From a virus, in IMG/VR virus record IMGVR_UViG_3300022072_000154, positions 1 to 22,026 of that record: a DNA stretch of 22,026 bases, one strand, 5' to 3'. The notes beneath the pieces are model-generated. The model was not told where the DNA came from. It did no database searches and saw nothing but the letters and a program-made list of their open reading frames with translations. The position numbers and the translations under genes were made by a program. This document shows positions 6,689-17,562 of the stretch, piece by piece (position 1 is the stretch's first letter; each line of letters begins with the position of its first letter).

Positions 6689-7756
6689 ATGAAGATTGCT
6701 GTGATAAATGACACACACTGGGGAGCTAGAAGCGATAACGTTGCATTCGCTGACTACTTCATTAAGTTCTATAAGGAAGTGTTCTTCCCGACATTACGAG
6801 AGCAAGGTATCAAGACAGTCTTTCACCTCGGTGATGTGACTGATCGACGTAAGTATATCAACTTCCTTACTGCCAAGAATCTCGAAGAGAACTTCATGAA
6901 AGTGTGTGCTGATGAAGGTATAGACCTACACATCATCGCAGGCAATCATGATACTTTCTTTAAGAATACTAATGAAGTCAATAGCCTTCGGCAGCTGTAT
7001 GGCACATCTGCTTATAGCAATCTACACATCTACTGGGAGAAGCCTGTTGAGTTGGATATGGATGGCTTTAAGGTCATGCTATCTCCTTGGCTATGTGCTG
7101 ACAACTGGGAGAAGTCATTCGAGATGTACAAGGAGACTGACGCTCAAGTACTGTTCGGCCACTTTGAGTTCCAAGGCTTTGAGATGATGAAAGGTCAGCT
7201 ATGCGATCATGGTCTAGATAAGAAGGTATTTAACAAGTTTGATGCTGTGTATTCTGGACACTTTCACCATCCTTCCACTATCGACAACATCACATATCTC
7301 GGCGCACCATACGAGATGAACTGGTCGGATTATAACCAACGTCGAGGTTTCAACATCTTTGACACAGAGACTCGTGAAGTGACTCACGTTGTTAACCCGT
7401 TCAGGATGTTCCATAAGATCATGTATGATGATACTGACATGACTATTGAAGATATTGCGAACTATGAAACAAAAGACTTGACAAACACCTTCATAAAAGT
7501 TATAGTTACTAATAAGAGTAACCCATACCTATTTGACCTGTTCTTAGACCGATTACAGGCTGCATCGCCATCTGATATCAGGGTCGTAGAAGACCACACC
7601 AATCTAGATGTGATTGATGAGAGCGAGTTAGTCGACGAGGCACAAGACACTCTAACGATCTTAAAGCAGTATGTCCAGAACCTGGAGTTTACTGGAGATA
7701 AGGTCAGAGTTGAGAAGATCCTTGATGATCTATACCAAGAGGCGATTGATCTGTGA
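6689..7756 (+). CDS. 47: Recombination nuclease subunit gp47 (SbcD/Mre11-like)
   Basis: Gp47 is the nuclease half of the Gp46/47 complex, which resects DNA ends for recombination-dependent replication and degrades host DNA. The 355-residue product (T4: 339) shows all metallophosphatase motifs of Mre11/SbcD: DTHWG (Asp8, His10), GDVTDRR (48-54), GNHD (85-88), then LFGHFEFQ and YSGHFHHP with the metal-binding histidines. A GAGGAG overlapping the end of gene 55 provides the ribosome site, three bases separate the two genes, and the stop overlaps the GTG start of gene 46. Confidence 0.96.
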   Translation: MKIAVINDTHWGARSDNVAFADYFIKFYKEVFFPTLREQGIKTVFHLGDVTDRRKYINFLTAKNLEENFMKVCADEGIDLHIIAGNHDTFFKNTNEVNSLRQLYGTSAYSNLHIYWEKPVELDMDGFKVMLSPWLCADNWEKSFEMYKETDAQVLFGHFEFQGFEMMKGQLCDHGLDKKVFNKFDAVYSGHFHHPSTIDNITYLGAPYEMNWSDYNQRRGFNIFDTETREVTHVVNPFRMFHKIMYDDTDMTIEDIANYETKDLTNTFIKVIVTNKSNPYLFDLFLDRLQAASPSDIRVVEDHTNLDVIDESELVDEAQDTLTILKQYVQNLEFTGDKVRVEKILDDLYQEAIDL

Positions 7757-9462
7757 TAATTTTTGAAAAGCTTAAGTACAAGAACATTCTGTCAACCGGA
7801 AATGCTTGGACTGAGATACAACTAAACCGAAGTAAGTCTACCTTGATCGTCGGTGAGAACGGCGCAGGTAAGTCGACTATGCTGGATGCGTTGACGTTTG
7901 CTTTGTATGGCAAACCCTTTCGTAAGATCAATAAGAATCAGCTACTAAACTCTATCAATACCAAGGGTTTAGAGGTTGAGGCATACTTTAGTATTAGTAC
8001 AGTGCGGTATGTGATCAAGCGTGGTATCAAGCCAAATATCTTTGAGATCTGGAAGAATGACGTTCTGCTTAACCAAGATGCAGCCGCACGAGACTACCAG
8101 ACATACTTGGAAGAGACCATCCTTAAACTGAACTACAAGTCGTTTGGTCAAGTGGTTGTTCTAGGCTCGAGCACGTTCGTACCGTTCATGCAGTTGAAAG
8201 CCGGTGAACGCCGTGAGGTCATCGAAGATCTACTTGATATCCAGATCTTCACTGTGATGAATACACTGCTTAAGGATAAGCTAAGTATTAATAAGTCTGA
8301 GATACTTGATATCAAATACCAGATAGACCTTCTTAAGAACAGGATCGAGTCCTCTAAGACGCACAACGAGTCTATTCGTAAGATGAAAGAGGTCGAGGTA
8401 GGCCGTCTTAAAGACAAACTGCGTGAGCAAATCGCATTCGTTGAATCTGAGCAAGTCGCTATAGACGCATTGCTAGACGAGATCGGTGGGTTGGCTGAAA
8501 GTATACTCGATAAAGCAGGCGTCAAGAAGGGAATATCTGAACTGAATGATATTGACCGAGACTTGGTGGCTAAACATCGACTATTGACTACGGAAGTATC
8601 ATTCTATGAAGATAACGACAATTGTCCAACCTGTAAACAAGGCATCAAACACGAGTTCAAAGAAGAAACAATCACCGCCCATTCCGCCAAAGCTGAAGAA
8701 ATTACCACCGCAAGAGGGCAGCTTAGACATAAAGGTGTAAAGCTCGACACTAGATTGGCTGAGATTGATGATATCGAGTCTGTTATCACATCCAAGCACC
8801 TAGACGTGAGTGAGCACAGGGGTAACCATAAGATGTCTATGACCTCATGCAAGTCTATCAAGAATGAACTGACTGGCGCTGAAAAGGAAGTGGTTGCTAT
8901 CGACAATAACGATATCATAGCGCTTGAACGTGAGTTGAATGCGCATCATGATAGTCAGACTAAACTGTTTGATGACAAAGAGACTCTATCTATCGTATCG
9001 GCTATGCTGAAGGATGGCGGTATCAAGACACGTATCATTAAGCAGTACGTGCCCGTGATGAACAAGTTGATTGGTAAGTACCTGTCTGCTATGGACTTCT
9101 TTGTACAGTTTGAGCTAGATGAGAACTTCAATGAGACCATCAAGTCTCGCTTTCGTGACGATTTCTCGTATGCATCATTCTCCGAAGGTGAGAAGTTGCG
9201 TATAGATCTAGCTCTGTTGTTCACATGGAGAGCTGTCTCTAAATTGCGTAACTCTGTGGCGACTAACCTGTTGATTATGGATGAGATCATGGACTCGTCG
9301 CTGGACTCCACTGGCACCGAAGAGTTTCTCAAGATCATTGAAGAGCTGGCAACGGACTCCAATATCTTTATCATCAGCCACAAGGGTGATCAGTTGTTTG
9401 ACAAGTTCCATAGCGTAATCAGGTTCGAGAAGGTTAAGAACTTTAGTAGAATTGCGTCATAA
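7753..9462 (+). CDS. 46: Recombination nuclease ATPase subunit gp46 (SbcC/Rad50-like)
   Basis: This is the ATPase partner of gp47. The 569-residue product (T4: 560) has Walker A GENGAGKS (Lys40), a long charged coiled coil (about 170-240 and 300-400) broken by the zinc hook CPTC (Cys291, Cys294), the ABC signature FSEGEKLRIDLAL (about 475), Walker B LLIMDE (about 506) and a switch histidine in IISHKG. It starts at GTG in a GTGA overlap with the stop of gene 47, so translation is coupled. Its far end is followed by a different kind of cargo, the sugar cassette, where T4 has rpbA and gene 45. Confidence 0.96.
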   Translation: MIIFEKLKYKNILSTGNAWTEIQLNRSKSTLIVGENGAGKSTMLDALTFALYGKPFRKINKNQLLNSINTKGLEVEAYFSISTVRYVIKRGIKPNIFEIWKNDVLLNQDAAARDYQTYLEETILKLNYKSFGQVVVLGSSTFVPFMQLKAGERREVIEDLLDIQIFTVMNTLLKDKLSINKSEILDIKYQIDLLKNRIESSKTHNESIRKMKEVEVGRLKDKLREQIAFVESEQVAIDALLDEIGGLAESILDKAGVKKGISELNDIDRDLVAKHRLLTTEVSFYEDNDNCPTCKQGIKHEFKEETITAHSAKAEEITTARGQLRHKGVKLDTRLAEIDDIESVITSKHLDVSEHRGNHKMSMTSCKSIKNELTGAEKEVVAIDNNDIIALERELNAHHDSQTKLFDDKETLSIVSAMLKDGGIKTRIIKQYVPVMNKLIGKYLSAMDFFVQFELDENFNETIKSRFRDDFSYASFSEGEKLRIDLALLFTWRAVSKLRNSVATNLLIMDEIMDSSLDSTGTEEFLKIIEELATDSNIFIISHKGDQLFDKFHSVIRFEKVKNFSRIAS

Positions 9463-9538: not shown

Positions 9539-10303
9539 ATGAATACCAAGCGCTATATATTCGATGTTGATGGAACACTAACTCCTAGTCGCAGTAGAAT
9601 GAACACAGAGTTTGCTTTGTGGTTCTCGAAGTTTTGTGATAGCCATGACGTATATCTAGTGACCGGTAGTGATAGAAAACGCACGATAGATCAGCTTGGT
9701 GAGGAGCTGTATAATAAGTGTACTAGAGTCTATCAGTGTGCTGGTAATGATGTTTGGGAGAAAGATGTTAATATTCGCACATCTTCTATGGATATCCCAG
9801 CAGACATGCTTAGTACATTAGAAGATATTGAGCGGAACAGTGCATTTGAGCACCGTACCGGAGATCATATGGATCGCCGTCCTGGTCTGATAAACTTCTC
9901 TGTTTTAGGTAAAGGAGCTACCACTCAGCAGAGAGCCGACTATTATCGATGGGACAATGCAATCATGGAAAGGGCATATATGGTTCATGTGTTGGCCACC
10001 GCATACGGCGACGAGTATGATATAGCGATTGCAGGCGATACTGGCATAGATATCACCCGTAAGAACTCTAGTAAGAAACAGGTCTTGACAGACTTCTCTG
10101 ATGATGATATAATACACTTCTACGGCGATAACATGTATGCCGGAGGTAATGATCGTGAACTAGCATTAGAGGTTCTGGCTAGGGGCGATATTGCGATCTC
10201 TGTCGACGATTGGGTTCATACGTGGTCTCTACTAGAGATACACTTAAACGATCGATCTGGCAAAAGCACCATCGGTACACGTTTCTACCCATTTACGAAA
10301 TAG
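9539..10303 (+). CDS. Eukaryotic-type phosphomannomutase-like HAD protein
   Basis: The 254-residue product follows the alpha-phosphomannomutase (PMM1/PMM2) branch of the HAD superfamily almost motif by motif: RYIFDVDGTLTPSR (nucleophile Asp9, acid/base Asp11), LVTGSDRKRTIDQLGEE, YQCAGNDVW, the sugar-binding RPGLINFSVLGKGATTQQR, then IAGDTGIDITRKNSSKKQVL and FYGDNMYAGGNDREL with the metal-binding acidic residues. Human PMM2 is 246 residues. These enzymes convert mannose-6-phosphate to mannose-1-phosphate, the precursor of GDP-sugars; a related hexose phosphatase role is possible. I chose ATG 9539 because GAGGA at 9526-9530 is eight bases upstream; more distant starts add an unrelated leader. 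Fifteen bases separate it from the next gene, a glycosyltransferase candidate, suggesting that it feeds sugar donor synthesis. Confidence 0.85.
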   Translation: MNTKRYIFDVDGTLTPSRSRMNTEFALWFSKFCDSHDVYLVTGSDRKRTIDQLGEELYNKCTRVYQCAGNDVWEKDVNIRTSSMDIPADMLSTLEDIERNSAFEHRTGDHMDRRPGLINFSVLGKGATTQQRADYYRWDNAIMERAYMVHVLATAYGDEYDIAIAGDTGIDITRKNSSKKQVLTDFSDDDIIHFYGDNMYAGGNDRELALEVLARGDIAISVDDWVHTWSLLEIHLNDRSGKSTIGTRFYPFTK

Positions 10304-10318
10304 AACACCCATTATATT

Positions 10319-11395
10319 ATGAGTACGACCATGACAAAAGGACTATTCTTCACAACACGATCCGTAACTGGACGTGAAGGCAAAGGCATCGTTGCTCACA
10401 TGGGCATCATCCAGACGCATTCTGCTCAAGTCGACTATCTATCTTCAAAGAAGACTGATAAGACTAAGCAGTTCATTGAGAGCTACGCTGATATCAGGAT
10501 CAACGAGAGCCGCAATCTATTTGGCGACTTTTATCTGAATGAAGCTATGCACATGTCTGACTGGATGGAAGTCTATGATAAGTTGGATGTCACCTCTCTT
10601 AGGATGTATGACAACTTATATCTAATTGGTGGAGTTGATTTGTGGAGATCTGGTCTCACCCGAGGCTCGAAACGTAACTTCATATTCCCCAAGGATCGGG
10701 GACAACTTAAGTTTCAGTCATGTGGCACTCTGCTGATAAACATGTTAGCACTGCTTAAAGCCCATCGTGACTATGGTATTCCCCTTCACGAGATGGCATT
10801 CGACCCAAATGAAATGTCACTAGATCTAGTTCACCCAGACGTTGCACCTCGAGACAATTACTATCTATATCATGGATATGATAATAGTCGATATAATACC
10901 TCTAGGCTGGACAGTATTCAACACTTCTTTAGTGGTAAGACCTCGATGTTCGATGATCCCAGCGATAAGTCATATGACTTCACATTCGGGTTCACTGTGC
11001 TTGAGATGAGTGGTCGCAAGGACTATAGCGCTGATGTCGCCGACCTATCTAGCAGATTTACTAACGTGAACGTATTCTGTAAGAACTATCTCACTGGAGA
11101 GGACACGCTAGTCGATAGGGATGTGTATCTACACTATGTATCGAAGTCGAAGTACACCATGATGCTTCCCTCGTATGACTCCAGCTGCTTCTCAATATAC
11201 CGATTTGTGGAATCCCTACATAATAACTGTGTACCGATACTTCATGCTGATTGTGTTGTGCATGAGATAGAGAGTTCGTTCGATGTAGACTTGAGTCCTT
11301 TGATGATGCTTGAAATTCCGAGCGAATCTAAGCGTATTGAGTTGCTGGCGTACTATAAAGACAAGTTTTTGAATGTTGAAAGAGGATTTAGATGA
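10319..11395 (+). CDS. Putative glycosyltransferase, exostosin-like C-terminus
   Basis: The 358-residue protein is not one I recognise over its whole length. Its C-terminal third contains YVSKSKYTMMLPSYDSSCFS and IYRFVESLHNNCVPILHADC (about residues 275-315), the pattern of exostosin/GT-B nucleotide-sugar sites, where a conserved Glu sits in a helix before a small-residue turn and a PI strand. The N-terminal half has no clear motif. No membrane segment is seen, so it should act in the cytoplasm. It lies between the phosphomannomutase-like gene and the TAGT-like gene and overlaps the latter by four bases. The ATG at 10319 has no clear ribosome site (upstream sequence is CCCATTATATT), and the ATG at 10331 is an alternative. 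Family call is tentative; a sugar-transfer role is supported by context. Confidence 0.55.
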   Translation: MSTTMTKGLFFTTRSVTGREGKGIVAHMGIIQTHSAQVDYLSSKKTDKTKQFIESYADIRINESRNLFGDFYLNEAMHMSDWMEVYDKLDVTSLRMYDNLYLIGGVDLWRSGLTRGSKRNFIFPKDRGQLKFQSCGTLLINMLALLKAHRDYGIPLHEMAFDPNEMSLDLVHPDVAPRDNYYLYHGYDNSRYNTSRLDSIQHFFSGKTSMFDDPSDKSYDFTFGFTVLEMSGRKDYSADVADLSSRFTNVNVFCKNYLTGEDTLVDRDVYLHYVSKSKYTMMLPSYDSSCFSIYRFVESLHNNCVPILHADCVVHEIESSFDVDLSPLMMLEIPSESKRIELLAYYKDKFLNVERGFR

Positions 11396-12927
11396 TGAAT
11401 AGAGATCTAGTTAAAGAAAGTGGCGATTACGACAACTACATCGACACTGAAGCCAGAAAGGGCGATAAGTACAGCGTGAGCCTCGATAGGTTCTTTGATG
11501 AGCCCATACCAGTTGCTCTACAGGACAACTCTAAGGCAAACAGAGTCGTTCGATCTAGCGTCTGGAAAGAGATTTATGTACACTTCAGGACAAAGGATGA
11601 CATGGCTGCATTCTGTACGGCCGTCAACCAATTCTTCCCAGGTGATATGAAAGAGGCGTATTATCCCTTGCATGATACATCACTCAGTCTATTCAAAGAC
11701 GAAGACGACTCTCCTGTGGTATTTGACGCAGACAAGCTCATACCCACTAGGGGTGGTATCAGCAATGGCCCGCTCGATGTGCCTTCAGCATACACACTAA
11801 ACTGGATGGCCCATTGGAAAGATATGCCAAACTTTGTTCAGAACGAGAAGATCAAGTTTCGGGTCATCACATTAAAGTTTCGCACTGAAGAGTGCTATGC
11901 GAAGTTTTGTGCTAAGATTCCACAGTCCATCACCGAGAAGACTAAGAGTATGTGGTATCCAGAGCAGAAGGTTATTAAGAATCTGCTCTTACGTTGGATT
12001 CAGCCCGAAGGCCGGACGCTTCCTAAGCACCCAATGTACATTGTATCAAAGGGTCGATCTGAGTCTATGATCACATCTAGAGTGTTGTCTCGTATGCAGA
12101 TACCACATAACATCGTCATTGAGCCTCAAGATCTGGAGCCATATGAGAAAGCCCTAGATACGTTTAGCATTAGGGATTACGTCACGTTGCTGGTGGCACC
12201 ATTTTCTAATCATGGCGATGGCCCAGGACGTGCTCGAAACTGGGCATGGGATCACTCTATTAGTATGGGTGCAACGAGTCACTGGGTATTGGATGATAAC
12301 ATCGGAGACTTCCACCGACTTCATAACAACTCTAGAGTCCGGTTCGAAAGCGGAGTCGGCTTTCAGGTAATGGAAGACTTTGTTGAGAGATACTCTAATG
12401 TCTATATCGCTGGGCCACAGTATCGGTTCTTTATTGACCCTAGTCAGCAATATGCGCCGTATGTGGCTAATACTCGAATCTATTCAACTCTACTCATTCG
12501 CAATGACTGTAAGCATAGATGGCGAGGTCGTTACAACGAAGATACCGACATCTGCCTGAGAGTTATGAAGGATGGAGACGTTTGTGTGCAGTTTAACTCA
12601 TTCCTTCAGGCCAAGTGCGCCACCCAGACAGTAGCTGGTGGTAATACGTCCGAGTTCTATCATGCAGAGAACGCCGACAGTGAGGGATTCAAAGAGACAG
12701 GCTACAATACCGAAGGAACAGTCAATAAGTCGCAAATGCTCGTTGATATGCACCCTGATGTTGCTCGGCTTGTCTGGCGATACGGTCGCTGGCACCATCA
12801 CGTAGACTACACGCCATTCAAGGTGAATAAGCTCAAGTTTAGAGATGGTTTTGAGCCAAGCGCTGATGCTGAGCCTAACGAGTACGGTATGAAATATGTT
12901 GAAGATTTCGACTGGAAGCACGCTTAG
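11392..12927 (+). CDS. TET-associated glycosyltransferase (TAGT)-like protein
   Basis: The C-terminal 300 residues (about 213-478) match the TAGT family as I know it: MYIVSKGRSESMITSR, a nucleotide-sugar GT-A start; IVIEPQDLEPYEKA; APFSNHGDGPGRARNWAWDHS; WVLDDN (299-303, metal-binding DD); NTRIYSTLLIRND; RWRGRYNEDTDICLRVMKDG (377-395); AGGNT; and HPDVARLVWRYGRWHHHVDYTPF. TAGTs are encoded by phages and glycosylate hydroxylated bases in DNA. The N-terminal 200 residues hold two degenerate copies of a small domain (about 58-92 and 156-190), the second ending ITEKTKSMWYP. GAGGA at 11382-11386 serves ATG 11392 or 11395. Expression is probably coupled to the preceding glycosyltransferase. Acceptor and sugar are not known; the required hydroxylated base must be made by genes outside this window. 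Confidence 0.85.
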   Translation: MMNRDLVKESGDYDNYIDTEARKGDKYSVSLDRFFDEPIPVALQDNSKANRVVRSSVWKEIYVHFRTKDDMAAFCTAVNQFFPGDMKEAYYPLHDTSLSLFKDEDDSPVVFDADKLIPTRGGISNGPLDVPSAYTLNWMAHWKDMPNFVQNEKIKFRVITLKFRTEECYAKFCAKIPQSITEKTKSMWYPEQKVIKNLLLRWIQPEGRTLPKHPMYIVSKGRSESMITSRVLSRMQIPHNIVIEPQDLEPYEKALDTFSIRDYVTLLVAPFSNHGDGPGRARNWAWDHSISMGATSHWVLDDNIGDFHRLHNNSRVRFESGVGFQVMEDFVERYSNVYIAGPQYRFFIDPSQQYAPYVANTRIYSTLLIRNDCKHRWRGRYNEDTDICLRVMKDGDVCVQFNSFLQAKCATQTVAGGNTSEFYHAENADSEGFKETGYNTEGTVNKSQMLVDMHPDVARLVWRYGRWHHHVDYTPFKVNKLKFRDGFEPSADAEPNEYGMKYVEDFDWKHA

Positions 12928-13808: not shown

Positions 13809-14138
13809 ATGATAGTAAACGTTATACACTCCGCATTAGAAGAAACTCCTCGTCTCGTAGCTAAAGTTGATGCGGGGTCTCGATCGATAGACGATGCTCT
13901 GGAATATGCATATAACGTCACTAACAATCTTAGGGGTAGCTGGTCTCAGGCTGCCGAGTTCACCTACGATAAAGTTCTAGTGAAGAATCTAGATTACAAT
14001 CCCAATGTGTCGGTTCTAGTGGATCTCCCAGTTCGGCTTGGTAAGACGTATGGCTTACGTTCGACCTCGATGGGAGATCAAATGCTAGTCGATTCCAAAA
14101 AATACAAAGTCGATATGGCAGGGTTTAAGGAGATATAA
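13809..14138 (+). CDS. Small early protein of unknown function
   Basis: The 109-residue product (MIVNVIHSALEETPRLVAKVD...) is not recognised. It contains an Asp/Ala-rich helix, then NLRGSWSQAAEF, and a basic C-terminus; no cysteines, metal motifs or membrane segments are seen. GAGAG at 13796-13800 is eight bases before the ATG. Its stop overlaps the dexA start by one base (TAATG), so it is coupled to dexA and might modulate that nuclease, which is inference from position only. Confidence 0.65.
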   Translation: MIVNVIHSALEETPRLVAKVDAGSRSIDDALEYAYNVTNNLRGSWSQAAEFTYDKVLVKNLDYNPNVSVLVDLPVRLGKTYGLRSTSMGDQMLVDSKKYKVDMAGFKEI

Positions 14139-14776
14139 TGGCAAAGAGAGATTTCATATTCGACATGGAGACTATTGGTGCAAACGTATTCGTCTGTCCT
14201 GTAGTTGATATGGCATACACCACATTTGATTGGGATAGGTTCTTAACAGATCCTTATACATTCGAAGAGATAGTATCAAGCGTCCAGACAGTGAAAGTCA
14301 ACGTCCTTGAGCAGATGCGTGAGTATGGCTGTGCCTTCAATAAGGTTGATGTTGAATGGTGGGAGAAGCTTCCTAAACTTGCACGAGATAAGTTAAAACC
14401 TTCGGCAGATGACTTGACAGTGGAGGAGTTTTGTAGTACAATACTAACATATCTTAGCGAACAAGGTAAGATCAATTACTGGTGGTCACGAGGCAACACA
14501 TTCGACCCAGTTATCTTATCTAGAAATATGCGAGCTGTAGGTAAAGAAGAGTTGATGAATAAGTTCTTGAAGTTCTATACAGTACGTGATGTACGAACTT
14601 ACATTGATGCGAAGTTCAACTTTACCACAAAGAGTGGATTTGTGCCGCTAGCTGATGAGACTTACTGGAACAACGCTTTCGTTGCCCACGATAGTTCACA
14701 TGATGTTGCAGCAGATGTTTTACGATTACAGACCATATACAGAGCTGAAAACGACTTGGAGCAAACTACACGATGA
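14138..14776 (+). CDS. dexA: DexA-like 3'-5' exonuclease
   Basis: The 212-residue product resembles T4 exonuclease A (227 residues), a DnaQ-fold enzyme that degrades single-stranded DNA. Visible motifs are FDMET (Asp9, Glu11; Exo I), RGNTFDPVIL (Asp123; Exo II) and AHDSSHDVAADV (His188, Asp193; Exo III). The VEWWEKLPKLARDKLKPS segment matches the IEWWKNQSPEARKNIAPS of T4 DexA. AAGGAG lies six bases before the ATG. The stop codon overlaps the ATG of the next gene. It may help recycle host DNA into nucleotides, alongside gp46/47 and the nucleotide-pool enzyme downstream. Confidence 0.9.
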   Translation: MAKRDFIFDMETIGANVFVCPVVDMAYTTFDWDRFLTDPYTFEEIVSSVQTVKVNVLEQMREYGCAFNKVDVEWWEKLPKLARDKLKPSADDLTVEEFCSTILTYLSEQGKINYWWSRGNTFDPVILSRNMRAVGKEELMNKFLKFYTVRDVRTYIDAKFNFTTKSGFVPLADETYWNNAFVAHDSSHDVAADVLRLQTIYRAENDLEQTTR

Positions 14777-15270
14777 ATGTTAAGCATGATAACTCGACTG
14801 GTAATATAAAGTACGCATCGTCAGGCAATATCGACTACGACGCCAAGTATGATGCATCAAGCACTGGCGCAATGCGAGAAGCAATGAACGTTCCCTATAT
14901 GCGCCAGTTGCCGTTAGAGGCACTTGCCGCAGGAGCAGCAGCGCTTGAATATGGTGCTAATAAGTATAGCAATCGTAACTGGGAGAAGGGTCTACCTTGG
15001 CAGCAGATGATTGATAGCCTGAAGCGTCACATTGATGACTTTGAGCGTGGTCATAACTTCGATGACGGTGATGGTGGATCTGGACTAGATCAAGTCTGCA
15101 TGATCATGGCATCATCGATGATGTTAGCTGCTTCCGTAGTTCGAGGCATAGGTGAAGATGATCGTATGGCACCACCTGGCAATCTAACACTTTCTGCCAA
15201 AGAGTGTGCTATTTGGATAGATATGCAGCTCGACAATGCCGAAGAGTTTAAGAACAGAACTACCCCATAA
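14773..15270 (+). CDS. dATP/dGTP diphosphohydrolase-family protein (DUF5664-like)
   Basis: Residues 45-122 of this 165-residue protein match the phage family annotated as dATP/dGTP diphosphohydrolase N-terminal domain (formerly DUF5664): LPLEALAAGAAALEYGANKYSNRNWEKGLPWQQMID, followed by HIDDFERG, and a helix with LDQVCMIMASSMMLA. The all-helical fold, with acidic residues on paired helices, is related to MazG-type pyrophosphohydrolases. Members hydrolyse dNTPs to dNMP; which base is cleaved here cannot be told. It overlaps dexA by four bases (ATGA). Together with the dUTPase it points to control of the nucleotide pool, which would fit a phage with modified DNA, but such enzymes are also found without it. 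Confidence 0.75.
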   Translation: MNVKHDNSTGNIKYASSGNIDYDAKYDASSTGAMREAMNVPYMRQLPLEALAAGAAALEYGANKYSNRNWEKGLPWQQMIDSLKRHIDDFERGHNFDDGDGGSGLDQVCMIMASSMMLAASVVRGIGEDDRMAPPGNLTLSAKECAIWIDMQLDNAEEFKNRTTP

Positions 15271-15330: not shown

Positions 15331-15981
15331 ATGAAATTTAGTACCGATACATTGAATATCCTTAAGAACTTCTCGAACATCAACCCAAGCATCGTATTCA
15401 AAGCTGGGTCGACCATTCGAACAATCTCTCCGCAAAAGACTGTTATGGCCGCTGCAACTATTGGTGAGCATGTAGATCAGCAAGCTGGTGTATATGACTT
15501 GTCCCGTTTCTTGGCGACCCTCAGTCTTTTCGAGAATCCAGAGGTAGTATTTGGCACAGATCGATTTACCATTAAGGGCGGTAAAAGCGAACTCAAATAC
15601 ACCTATACCTCTGAGTCCTTGATTGTATCACCTCCAGATAAGGACATCGTTGTTCCTGATCCAGAGGCTACGATCAATGTCAGCTGGTCATCTATTGATA
15701 GTGTTATCCGTGCTACGGGTGTGCTACAGTTGCCAGAAGTCGCTTTCGTTAGTGATGGTACGACCATTTCAATGTCAGCGGTTGATAGTAAGACATCGAC
15801 TGCCGATAAGTATGAGATCGTCATTGCAGAAGGCGTTGACACCGTGCCCTTTAATATGGTTATCAAGACTGATAATCTAAAGCTAGTACATGCTGATTAT
15901 GTGGTAACGTTATCCTCTAAGGGCATGGCACACTTTAAGTCCGATAAAGTCCAGTACTGGATAGCAATCGAGTCCAAGTGA
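15331..15981 (+). CDS. 45: DNA polymerase sliding clamp, gp45-like
   Basis: This is the trimeric ring that tethers the polymerase and also activates late transcription with gp55. The 216-residue product (T4: 228) begins MKFSTDTLNILKNFSNINPSIVFKAGSTIRT, closely parallel to MKLSKDTTALLKNFATINSGIMLKSG of T4 gp45, and keeps the YDLSRFLATLSLF segment and a C-terminal GMAHFKSDKVQYWIAIES strand pair. AAAGGTGA supplies the ribosome site. It is followed by a small conserved gene and then the clamp loader, as in marine T4-like phages. No clear own promoter was found; a 14-bp palindrome lies upstream. Confidence 0.94.
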   Translation: MKFSTDTLNILKNFSNINPSIVFKAGSTIRTISPQKTVMAAATIGEHVDQQAGVYDLSRFLATLSLFENPEVVFGTDRFTIKGGKSELKYTYTSESLIVSPPDKDIVVPDPEATINVSWSSIDSVIRATGVLQLPEVAFVSDGTTISMSAVDSKTSTADKYEIVIAEGVDTVPFNMVIKTDNLKLVHADYVVTLSSKGMAHFKSDKVQYWIAIESK

Positions 15982-16359: not shown

Positions 16360-16408
16360 TGACGACTGAATTACGGCATTACGCATTATTATATTATGGA
16401 GAGTTACT

Positions 16409-17362
16409 ATGACAGTTTCTAAGCAGGACAACTTCATCTGGGTTGAGGCATACCGCCCTCAAACAGTTCAAGATACCATCCTTCCTGCCGATCTAAAGAA
16501 GACCTTCCAACAGTTCGTCGATCAAAAGAACGTACCCAATCTACTATTAAGTGGGCGTGCTGGCATTGGTAAGACTACTATTGCTAAGGCTATGTTAGAA
16601 GAGATTGGATCGGATTACATAACAATCAACGGTTCTATGAATGGTAATATCGACACACTTCGACACGAGATATCAAACTTTGCGTCAAGTGTATCATTCA
16701 CGGGTGGACGTAAGTACGTTATCTTAGATGAAGCTGATTATCTGAACCCAAACTCGACTCAACCAGCACTACGTAACTTCATGGAGGAGTTCTCGAAGAA
16801 CTGTGGCTTTATCATGACCTGTAACTTTAAGAACAGGATCATTGAGCCACTGCACTCTCGATGTAGTGTTATTGAGTTTAGCATTGACCGGGCTGACAAG
16901 CCTAAGCTCGCATCTCAGTTTTTCAAACGAGTGTGCGGAATTTTGGATGGCGAAGGAGTTACTTATGATCAGAAAGCAGTTGCAGAACTTGTACAACTTT
17001 ATTTTCCCGATTGGCGCAGAGTCCTTAATGAACTACAGCGTTATGCTACTACTGGTAGTATTGATGCTGGTATTCTAGCAAACAAGTCTGGTGATAGTAT
17101 CAGCGGTCTCATCGATCTAATGAAGGCCAAAGATTTTACTGCGACTCGTAAGTGGGTAGCTGAGAATGTTGACGTGGACTCTGCCGTACTCTATCGTCAG
17201 TTATATGATGTACTGCCGTCTAAGGTCAGCACAACTCAGAGTATTGCTGAAGCGATTATCATCCTCGCTGATTACCAATACAAAGAGGCATTCGTCGCTA
17301 ATACTGAAATCAATCGAGTTGCTGCCCTTGCTACTCTCATGGCGGAGATCGACTGGAAATGA
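16409..17362 (+). CDS. 44: Clamp loader ATPase subunit, gp44-like
   Basis: This AAA+ subunit opens and loads the sliding clamp with gp62. The 317-residue product (T4: 319) starts with WVEAYRPQTVQDTILP, the usual opening of replication factor C proteins, then Walker A GRAGIGKTT (Lys55), Walker B ILDEAD (105-110), sensor 1 FIMTCNFKN and the SRC arginine-finger motif (150-152). GGAGAG at 16398-16403 is the ribosome site. Its stop overlaps the start of the zinc-binding gene by four bases (ATGA). Confidence 0.96.
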   Translation: MTVSKQDNFIWVEAYRPQTVQDTILPADLKKTFQQFVDQKNVPNLLLSGRAGIGKTTIAKAMLEEIGSDYITINGSMNGNIDTLRHEISNFASSVSFTGGRKYVILDEADYLNPNSTQPALRNFMEEFSKNCGFIMTCNFKNRIIEPLHSRCSVIEFSIDRADKPKLASQFFKRVCGILDGEGVTYDQKAVAELVQLYFPDWRRVLNELQRYATTGSIDAGILANKSGDSISGLIDLMKAKDFTATRKWVAENVDVDSAVLYRQLYDVLPSKVSTTQSIAEAIIILADYQYKEAFVANTEINRVAALATLMAEIDWK

Positions 17363-17562
17363 GTATATTCAAGTCTAAAGTTCCACCAAAGGAATGCCTC
17401 ATCTGCGCCGATGCTGTTGGTGAGAATCCTTCCGAAGTACGATACAAGTATCAGGATGGGGAAGGTGTTGCGTACCTATGTAAGAAGTGCTCGGACTCTA
17501 TGAACAAAGATAATGTCAATAGTGATGACGAAGAGGATGTCGAGTATGGCGAATCCATTTGA
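17359..17562 (+). CDS. Small zinc-binding protein between genes 44 and 62
   Basis: The 67-residue product has a CLIC and CKKC pair (Cys13, Cys16 and two more near residues 41-44), spaced like a treble-clef or zinc ribbon, and a strongly acidic tail. T4 has no gene here. It overlaps gene 44 by ATGA and runs 17 bases into gene 62, so all three are translationally linked. It may help set the ratio of gp44 to gp62, or bind replication or transcription proteins; neither is shown by the sequence. Confidence 0.75.
   Translation: MSIFKSKVPPKECLICADAVGENPSEVRYKYQDGEGVAYLCKKCSDSMNKDNVNSDDEEDVEYGESI

Follow-up and report, generated by a model that had tools for sequence, protein, structure and literature searches.

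The viral sequence analysed here, 22,026 nucleotides in length (IMG/VR record IMGVR_UViG_3300022072_000154; the window), comes from the genome of a T4-like phage; this 22-kb fragment is the sole contig of its virus record. Between gene 46 and the dexA-like gene that precedes gene 45 it carries three sugar genes in a row: a phosphomannomutase (PMM), a glycosyltransferase-like gene that we label GT2 (a name for the middle gene of the window, not CAZy family GT2), and a TAGT. Comparison with related contigs shows the interval from gene 46 to dexA or gene 45 to be an exchangeable island of putative DNA-modification genes, in which TAGT is fixed and its partner is swapped. The main finding is this recombination of island parts among relatives; the exact triad is rare. 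Besides the window, three IMG/VR contigs carry all three genes, with proteins 99-100% identical to those of the window, and the combination was found in none beyond that group, so that the triad is known from one phage population. Taken together, the observations are best explained, with good probability, by reading the triad as one version of a DNA hypermodification island whose content marine T4-like phages exchange. The gene order proposed in an earlier note on this DNA holds: the three open reading frames are present (Table 1), the first two separated by 15 bases and the last two overlapping by 4.

In about 50 related contigs TAGT comes after gene 46 and before dexA or gene 45, and in most relatives the island ends at dexA. 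The gene coupled to TAGT varies among GT2 (the window and L221), a GT4-like GT-B protein (CL2), a short TAGT-like GT-A protein (CL0) and an FkbM methyltransferase. Upstream, PMM and a cytidylyltransferase-like protein (CL1; phrog_7878, heptose nucleotidyltransferase) come and go. Mapped on a gene-46 tree of 36 TAGT phages, the partner label must change 9 times (the minimum is 4), and CL0 and CL2 need 4 changes each. GT2 stands on two separate branches of this tree and is found again in another T4-like lineage (L218 and L219), where an N-domain gene lies upstream of it; GT2 is paired with TAGT in these two contigs and in L221, and Vibrio phages phiKT1024 and pv27 also carry both genes. The 4-base overlap between partner and TAGT recurs at 21 loci with CL2 and at 16 with GT2, counts that include redundant contigs, and suggests translational coupling. 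One CL0 member reaches the TAGT profile PF20691 at 1.2e-6; direct comparison of CL0 with TAGT by hhalign gave weak similarity only.

The evidence that these islands act on DNA comes largely from sister phages. A scan of viral contigs for relatives of gp42 (dCMP hydroxymethylase) gave 80 loci. In many gp42 loci the interval between genes 46/47 and dexA holds gp42, dCMP deaminase, a kinase, CL1, a glycosyltransferase (CL2, DNA alpha-glucosyltransferase [alpha-GT], or the 414-residue type of Pseudoalteromonas phage XG4) and a C5-methyltransferase. The clearest case is the sister phage L239: in this phage, whose genes 46, 44 and 45 and clamp-loader genes are ~58-75% identical to those of the window's clade, the order is gp46, PMM (PF03332, 1e-21), CL1, gp42, dCMP deaminase, alpha-GT (PF11440, 1.4e-74), C5-methyltransferase and dexA. 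GT2 also has homologues in such operons. In XG4 (L212) the order is gp42, a HAD protein, a nucleoside triphosphate (NTP) transferase/kinase, a glycosyltransferase, GT2 and a C5-methyltransferase, and in Agathobaculum phage AB434P2 (L213) GT2 directly follows a gene annotated as deoxyuridylate hydroxymethyltransferase, with kinase, cytidylyltransferase and glycosyltransferase genes upstream. A weaker homologue lies near gp42 in L238. The hydroxymethylases of these operons have Asp where dTMP synthases have Asn, a known mark of dCMP hydroxymethylases such as T4 gp42. CL1 and CL2, too, are common to TAGT and gp42 islands.

Because their families recur in gp42 islands, two of the three window families, PMM and GT2, are tied by synteny to a known DNA-base pathway. 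The link of TAGT to DNA comes from its family, which includes the T6 enzyme (PMC13216743), and from the genes found near it in phages of other kinds: Dam and helicases in Vibrio phage 1.124.O, gp62, dUTPase and polymerase in henriette 12B8, and gp2, a DNA end protector, in Kuja. The purpose proposed earlier, DNA glycosylation, is thus strongly supported by synteny, the sister interval holding gp42, dCMP deaminase, alpha-GT and genes like that for 5-hydroxymethyldeoxyuridine (5-hmdU) DNA kinase. The window's phage very probably glycosylates its own DNA. Glycosylation of another target (virion protein, host surface or small molecule), with the location among replication genes incidental, would agree with the ordinary use of PMM-type genes in surface-sugar synthesis, with the presence of PMM paired with an HldE/TagD-like nucleotidyltransferase in contigs without TAGT or gp42 nearby, and with the lack of a visible hydroxylase. 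Such a target is nevertheless improbable, given that gp42, alpha-GT, dCMP deaminase and hmdU-kinase-like genes are repeatedly found together with members of the island, and that TAGT homologues occupy replication or DNA-methylation neighbourhoods in unrelated phages. Two further features of gp42 islands were seen. A C5-cytosine methyltransferase homologue accompanies gp42 in 51 of 99 gp42 loci, often overlapping dexA (L234-L313). The gp42 island of L240 (9995-18630) holds inositol-1-phosphate synthase, a 5-hmdU DNA kinase helical domain and a GT4-like protein, and perhaps specifies an inositol-type DNA modification.

The third gene had been called TAGT-like, and both profile and predicted fold bear this out. 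It matches PF20691 at E 5e-38 with 131.5 bits, where the cut-off is 27.5, and for its model (pLDDT 63.5) GT-A enzymes occupy the top VIA-align rows (Z 8.5-9.7). The DDN and EDTD motifs are invariant across a 22-sequence TAGT alignment. The N-terminal extension carries an accessory domain in two copies, whose profiles match the same proteins. This domain was seen nowhere but within TAGT genes or immediately before them; neither fusions to other proteins nor other contexts were found in the phages and plasmids searched. Two contigs have it as a small gene of its own upstream of TAGT, immediately adjacent in L137 (5639-5965) and before GT2 in L219 (7657-8004).

The first gene, described in the earlier note as a phosphomannomutase-like HAD protein, is indeed of this type: it matches PF03332 (E 4.3e-15), and its relatives in the PDB are PMM1 and PMM2, down to 1e-19. 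The catalytic DxDGT nucleophile motif is present (DVDGTLTPSR in the window), with at most one change in all 25 phage homologues, and the motif FYGD..GGND is retained. PMM is the first island gene in four other TAGT contigs (L016, L025, L027 and L032), and a PMM of the same family lies inside the gp42/alpha-GT island of L239. These placements argue against PMM being an auxiliary metabolic gene, serving mannose or glucose phosphate flux, that merely adjoins two transferases. That explanation, which we consider unlikely, draws on two cyanophages, S-SSM7 and P-TIM68, that have PMM but neither a PF00303 gene nor a TAGT match; in Prochlorococcus phage P-TIM68 (L117) a PMM of the same family also lies between genes 46 and 45, with no sign of TAGT, gp42 or a partner transferase. 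As the source of a sugar phosphate for the donor, the role first suggested for it, PMM is plausible, although in relatives a nucleotidyltransferase goes with it and the window has none. Two points about PMM count against the proposed pathway: the missing nucleotidyltransferase that usually accompanies it, and the substrate-site Arg of the motif N-S-P-I-G-R (aligned with R141 of PMM2), which is Lys (GK) in the window, GR being found in every motif-bearing homologue outside the window's near-identical group. The Lys keeps the charge, and activity may be retained.

The middle gene is the least well defined. GT2 has no Pfam match and no PDB relative by sequence, and neither of the window's two transferase-like proteins matches PF11440 or another Pfam transferase family, TAGT itself excepted. 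The label "exostosin-like" given to GT2 earlier is unproven, resting on motifs and a sub-threshold match of a distant homologue: the window protein had no match to the GT47 exostosin profile, and the AB434P2 homologue gave E 0.096, below the cut-off. Nor does GT2 have a confident fold (AF2 pLDDT 57), which also weakens its proposed role. Its N-terminal half is weakly like the MurG N-domain, the best VIA-align row having Z 7.2, within the noise range. Foldseek returned only Rossmann-type epimerases at low TM. Comparison with the 414-residue XG4 transferase by hhalign gave 69% probability over 152 columns, which is suggestive only. From its homologues in gp42 operons and its pairing with TAGT, GT2 is a probable enzyme for moving sugar to a hydroxylated DNA base or to a TAGT-added sugar.

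In the pathway that we propose, PMM would make hexose-1-phosphate for the sugar donor, and a host or another phage enzyme would activate it to a nucleoside diphosphate (NDP)-sugar; since the window has no CL1, the activating nucleotidyltransferase would come from elsewhere. GT2 and TAGT, translationally coupled, would successively add two sugars to a hydroxylated pyrimidine of replicated phage DNA, and the sugared DNA would then be poorly cut by restriction and CRISPR nucleases. The hydroxyl-bearing base would be the product of an enzyme encoded beyond the window or of one that escaped recognition, and might be 5-hydroxymethylcytosine (5hmC), 5-hydroxycytosine, hydroxymethyluracil (hmU) or something undescribed.

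The order of the two transferases is less clear. The earlier note had TAGT adding the first sugar and the other transferase the second; the two-transferase logic draws support from the overlapping GT2-TAGT pair, present in three lineages. We lean slightly towards TAGT acting first and GT2 second, since TAGT is the constant member while the partner is swapped, as would fit an inner enzyme, and since TAGT occurs without a partner transferase in several phages (Aeh1, phage 65, henriette, L034 and L050). The reverse, with GT2 glycosylating the base itself and TAGT adding to that sugar in the manner of the alpha-GT and TAGT of T2/T6, is given a little less than an even chance. The TAGT of T6 is the one characterised TAGT; it glucosylates alpha-glucosyl-hmC, adding the second sugar (PMC13216743, PMC13390438), a precedent that would place TAGT second. 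GT2 homologues in gp42 phages without TAGT, and alpha-GT in the island of sister phages, point the same way.

Glycosylation by TAGT and GT2 presupposes a hydroxylated base, and the results on its origin weigh against the pathway. As noted earlier, the window has no hydroxymethyltransferase or TET/JBP gene (no PF00303 match and no TET_JBP match, the TET control being only weakly positive). The further proposal that the base-modifying step lies elsewhere could not be shown: a search of the clade's longest contigs (up to 91 kb) gave no gp42. Among these, G006 (53 kb) and G012 (91 kb) offer no more than an ordinary thymidylate synthase of the Asn type and G011 (66 kb) has no PF00303 match, all three being fragments. 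TET/JBP (PF12851) was not found in the window or its relatives, in searches whose controls gave no or weak matches and whose records were fragments. No TAGT island carries a gp42-type or TET gene, and among 121 TAGT and 99 gp42 loci none had both in the fetched flanks, although with redundant loci and best-hit selection this is not a clean statistic. TAGT-bearing Aeh1 has an Asn-type thymidylate synthase. It is without gene 42 according to the review PMC2993671, which also suggests that many gene-42-less T4 relatives have little-modified DNA, Aeh1 not being named at that point. The exclusion of TAGT and gp42 is local and not absolute, because another TAGT phage, Tenacibaculum phage PTm1 (L124), has a second thymidylate-synthase homologue, of the Asp type, a candidate dCMP hydroxymethylase or 5-hydroxy-dCMP synthase.

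Other sources of the hydroxyl group were considered and rejected. The 2-oxoglutarate oxygenase family PF13640 is absent from G006, G011 and G012; its matches are confined to two distant TAGT contigs, G013 and G015, while G014 gives a trace below threshold. Genes common to TAGT contigs and absent from phiM12 encode structural proteins, ligase, hsp20 or unknown proteins, and no oxygenase. The thymidylate synthases of Vibrio phage phiKT1024 and of Kuja were dropped as evidence for hydroxymethyluracil, the phiKT1024 enzyme because it is closest (~67%) to annotated thymidylate synthases of T5-like phages. The gene beside the thymidylate synthase of G006 and G012 reads as a candidate dihydrofolate reductase. 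More speculatively, TAGT-island phages might glycosylate DNA without gp42 or TET, through an unrecognised hydroxylase or at a base position needing no hydroxymethylation, with the outer sugar changed by partner swap; we consider this less likely than not.

In its working the proposed system would resemble those of T2/T6 and RB69. By profile and predicted fold the locus belongs to TAGT, and as far as visible it does not belong to the T-even pathway. Like the T2/T6 pathway (gp42, alpha-GT and TAGT, giving gentiobiosyl-hmC; PMC13390438, PMC13216743), the window has two putative DNA glycosyltransferases, one of them a Pfam TAGT, among the DNA genes of a T4-type phage. Unlike T2/T6, it has no gp42 or alpha-GT, its partner is GT2, it has its own PMM, and the island lies between genes 46 and 45; its TAGT is distantly related to that of T2/T6 and has the duplicated N-domain. 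In the arabinosylation island of RB69/Mosigvirus (PMC6024577, PMC13390438) sugar-supply genes are likewise clustered with DNA glycosyltransferases, but Mosigvirus has 5-hydroxy-dCMP synthase and isomerase, epimerase, kinase and NTP transferase genes, whereas the window has PMM and none of those. Phage-encoded sugar activation is coupled to DNA glycosylation also in the pentose-cytosine modification of Shewanella phage Thanatos (PMC12838424), which, with UDP-xylose pyrophosphorylase and other transferases, is set apart from the window by description, not by sequence. A 2026 study counted 288 phage genomes, out of 753, with solitary TAGTs to which no role could be given (PMC13216743); they share with the window a TAGT without alpha-GT or beta-glucosyltransferase (beta-GT). 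Many such TAGTs are shown here to have other, exchangeable partners, the partner in the window being GT2, and to occupy a single defined interval that also holds sugar-supply genes. By altering which sugar the DNA bears, cassette exchange could let a phage evade base-specific defences of the host. The results also raise the question of the source of the hydroxylated base in TAGT phages without gp42.

Table 1. Features of the island and its borders in the window
Feature	Position	Strand	Basis
Gene 46, SbcC-like recombination endonuclease subunit; upstream border of the island	7753..9462	+	tblastn to gp46 of DLP6 (55%), phiM12 and others
PMM, HAD-superfamily phosphomannomutase (eukaryotic PMM type), 254 residues, ATG start	9539..10303	+	PF03332
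GT2, glycosyltransferase-like, probable GT-B, 358 residues	10319..11395	+	Homologues in gp42 operons; TAGT pairing
TAGT, predicted GT-A DNA glycosyltransferase, 511 residues, N-terminal extension of ~210 residues	11392..12927	+	PF20691, motifs, predicted fold
Duplicated accessory N-domain of TAGT, ~residues 55-95 and 138-203	11392..12030	+	Copy profiles match same proteins
dexA-like exonuclease; downstream border of the island	14138..14776	+	phrog_255 exonuclease, 1.1e-30
Protein with dATP/dGTP diphosphohydrolase N-terminal domain, just after dexA	14773-15270		PF18909, 1.9e-19
Gene 45 sliding clamp	15331..15981	+	Homology to gp45 of relatives

The window's capsid protein is closest to those of Sinorhizobium phages phiM12 and phiN3 and of marine Methylophilales phages, and its gp46 to those of Stenotrophomonas phage DLP6, phiM12 and Melnitz. 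The PF18909 protein is kept in many TAGT-island contigs and in L236 and L239, and could deplete one canonical dNTP. The window's relatives have a conserved GT-A-like protein directly before gene 45 (L221, 12310-13233; L239, 14642-15574; phiM12, 16408-17385), which is absent from the window; in L239 it gives PF13506 at 0.0027, below the cut-off.

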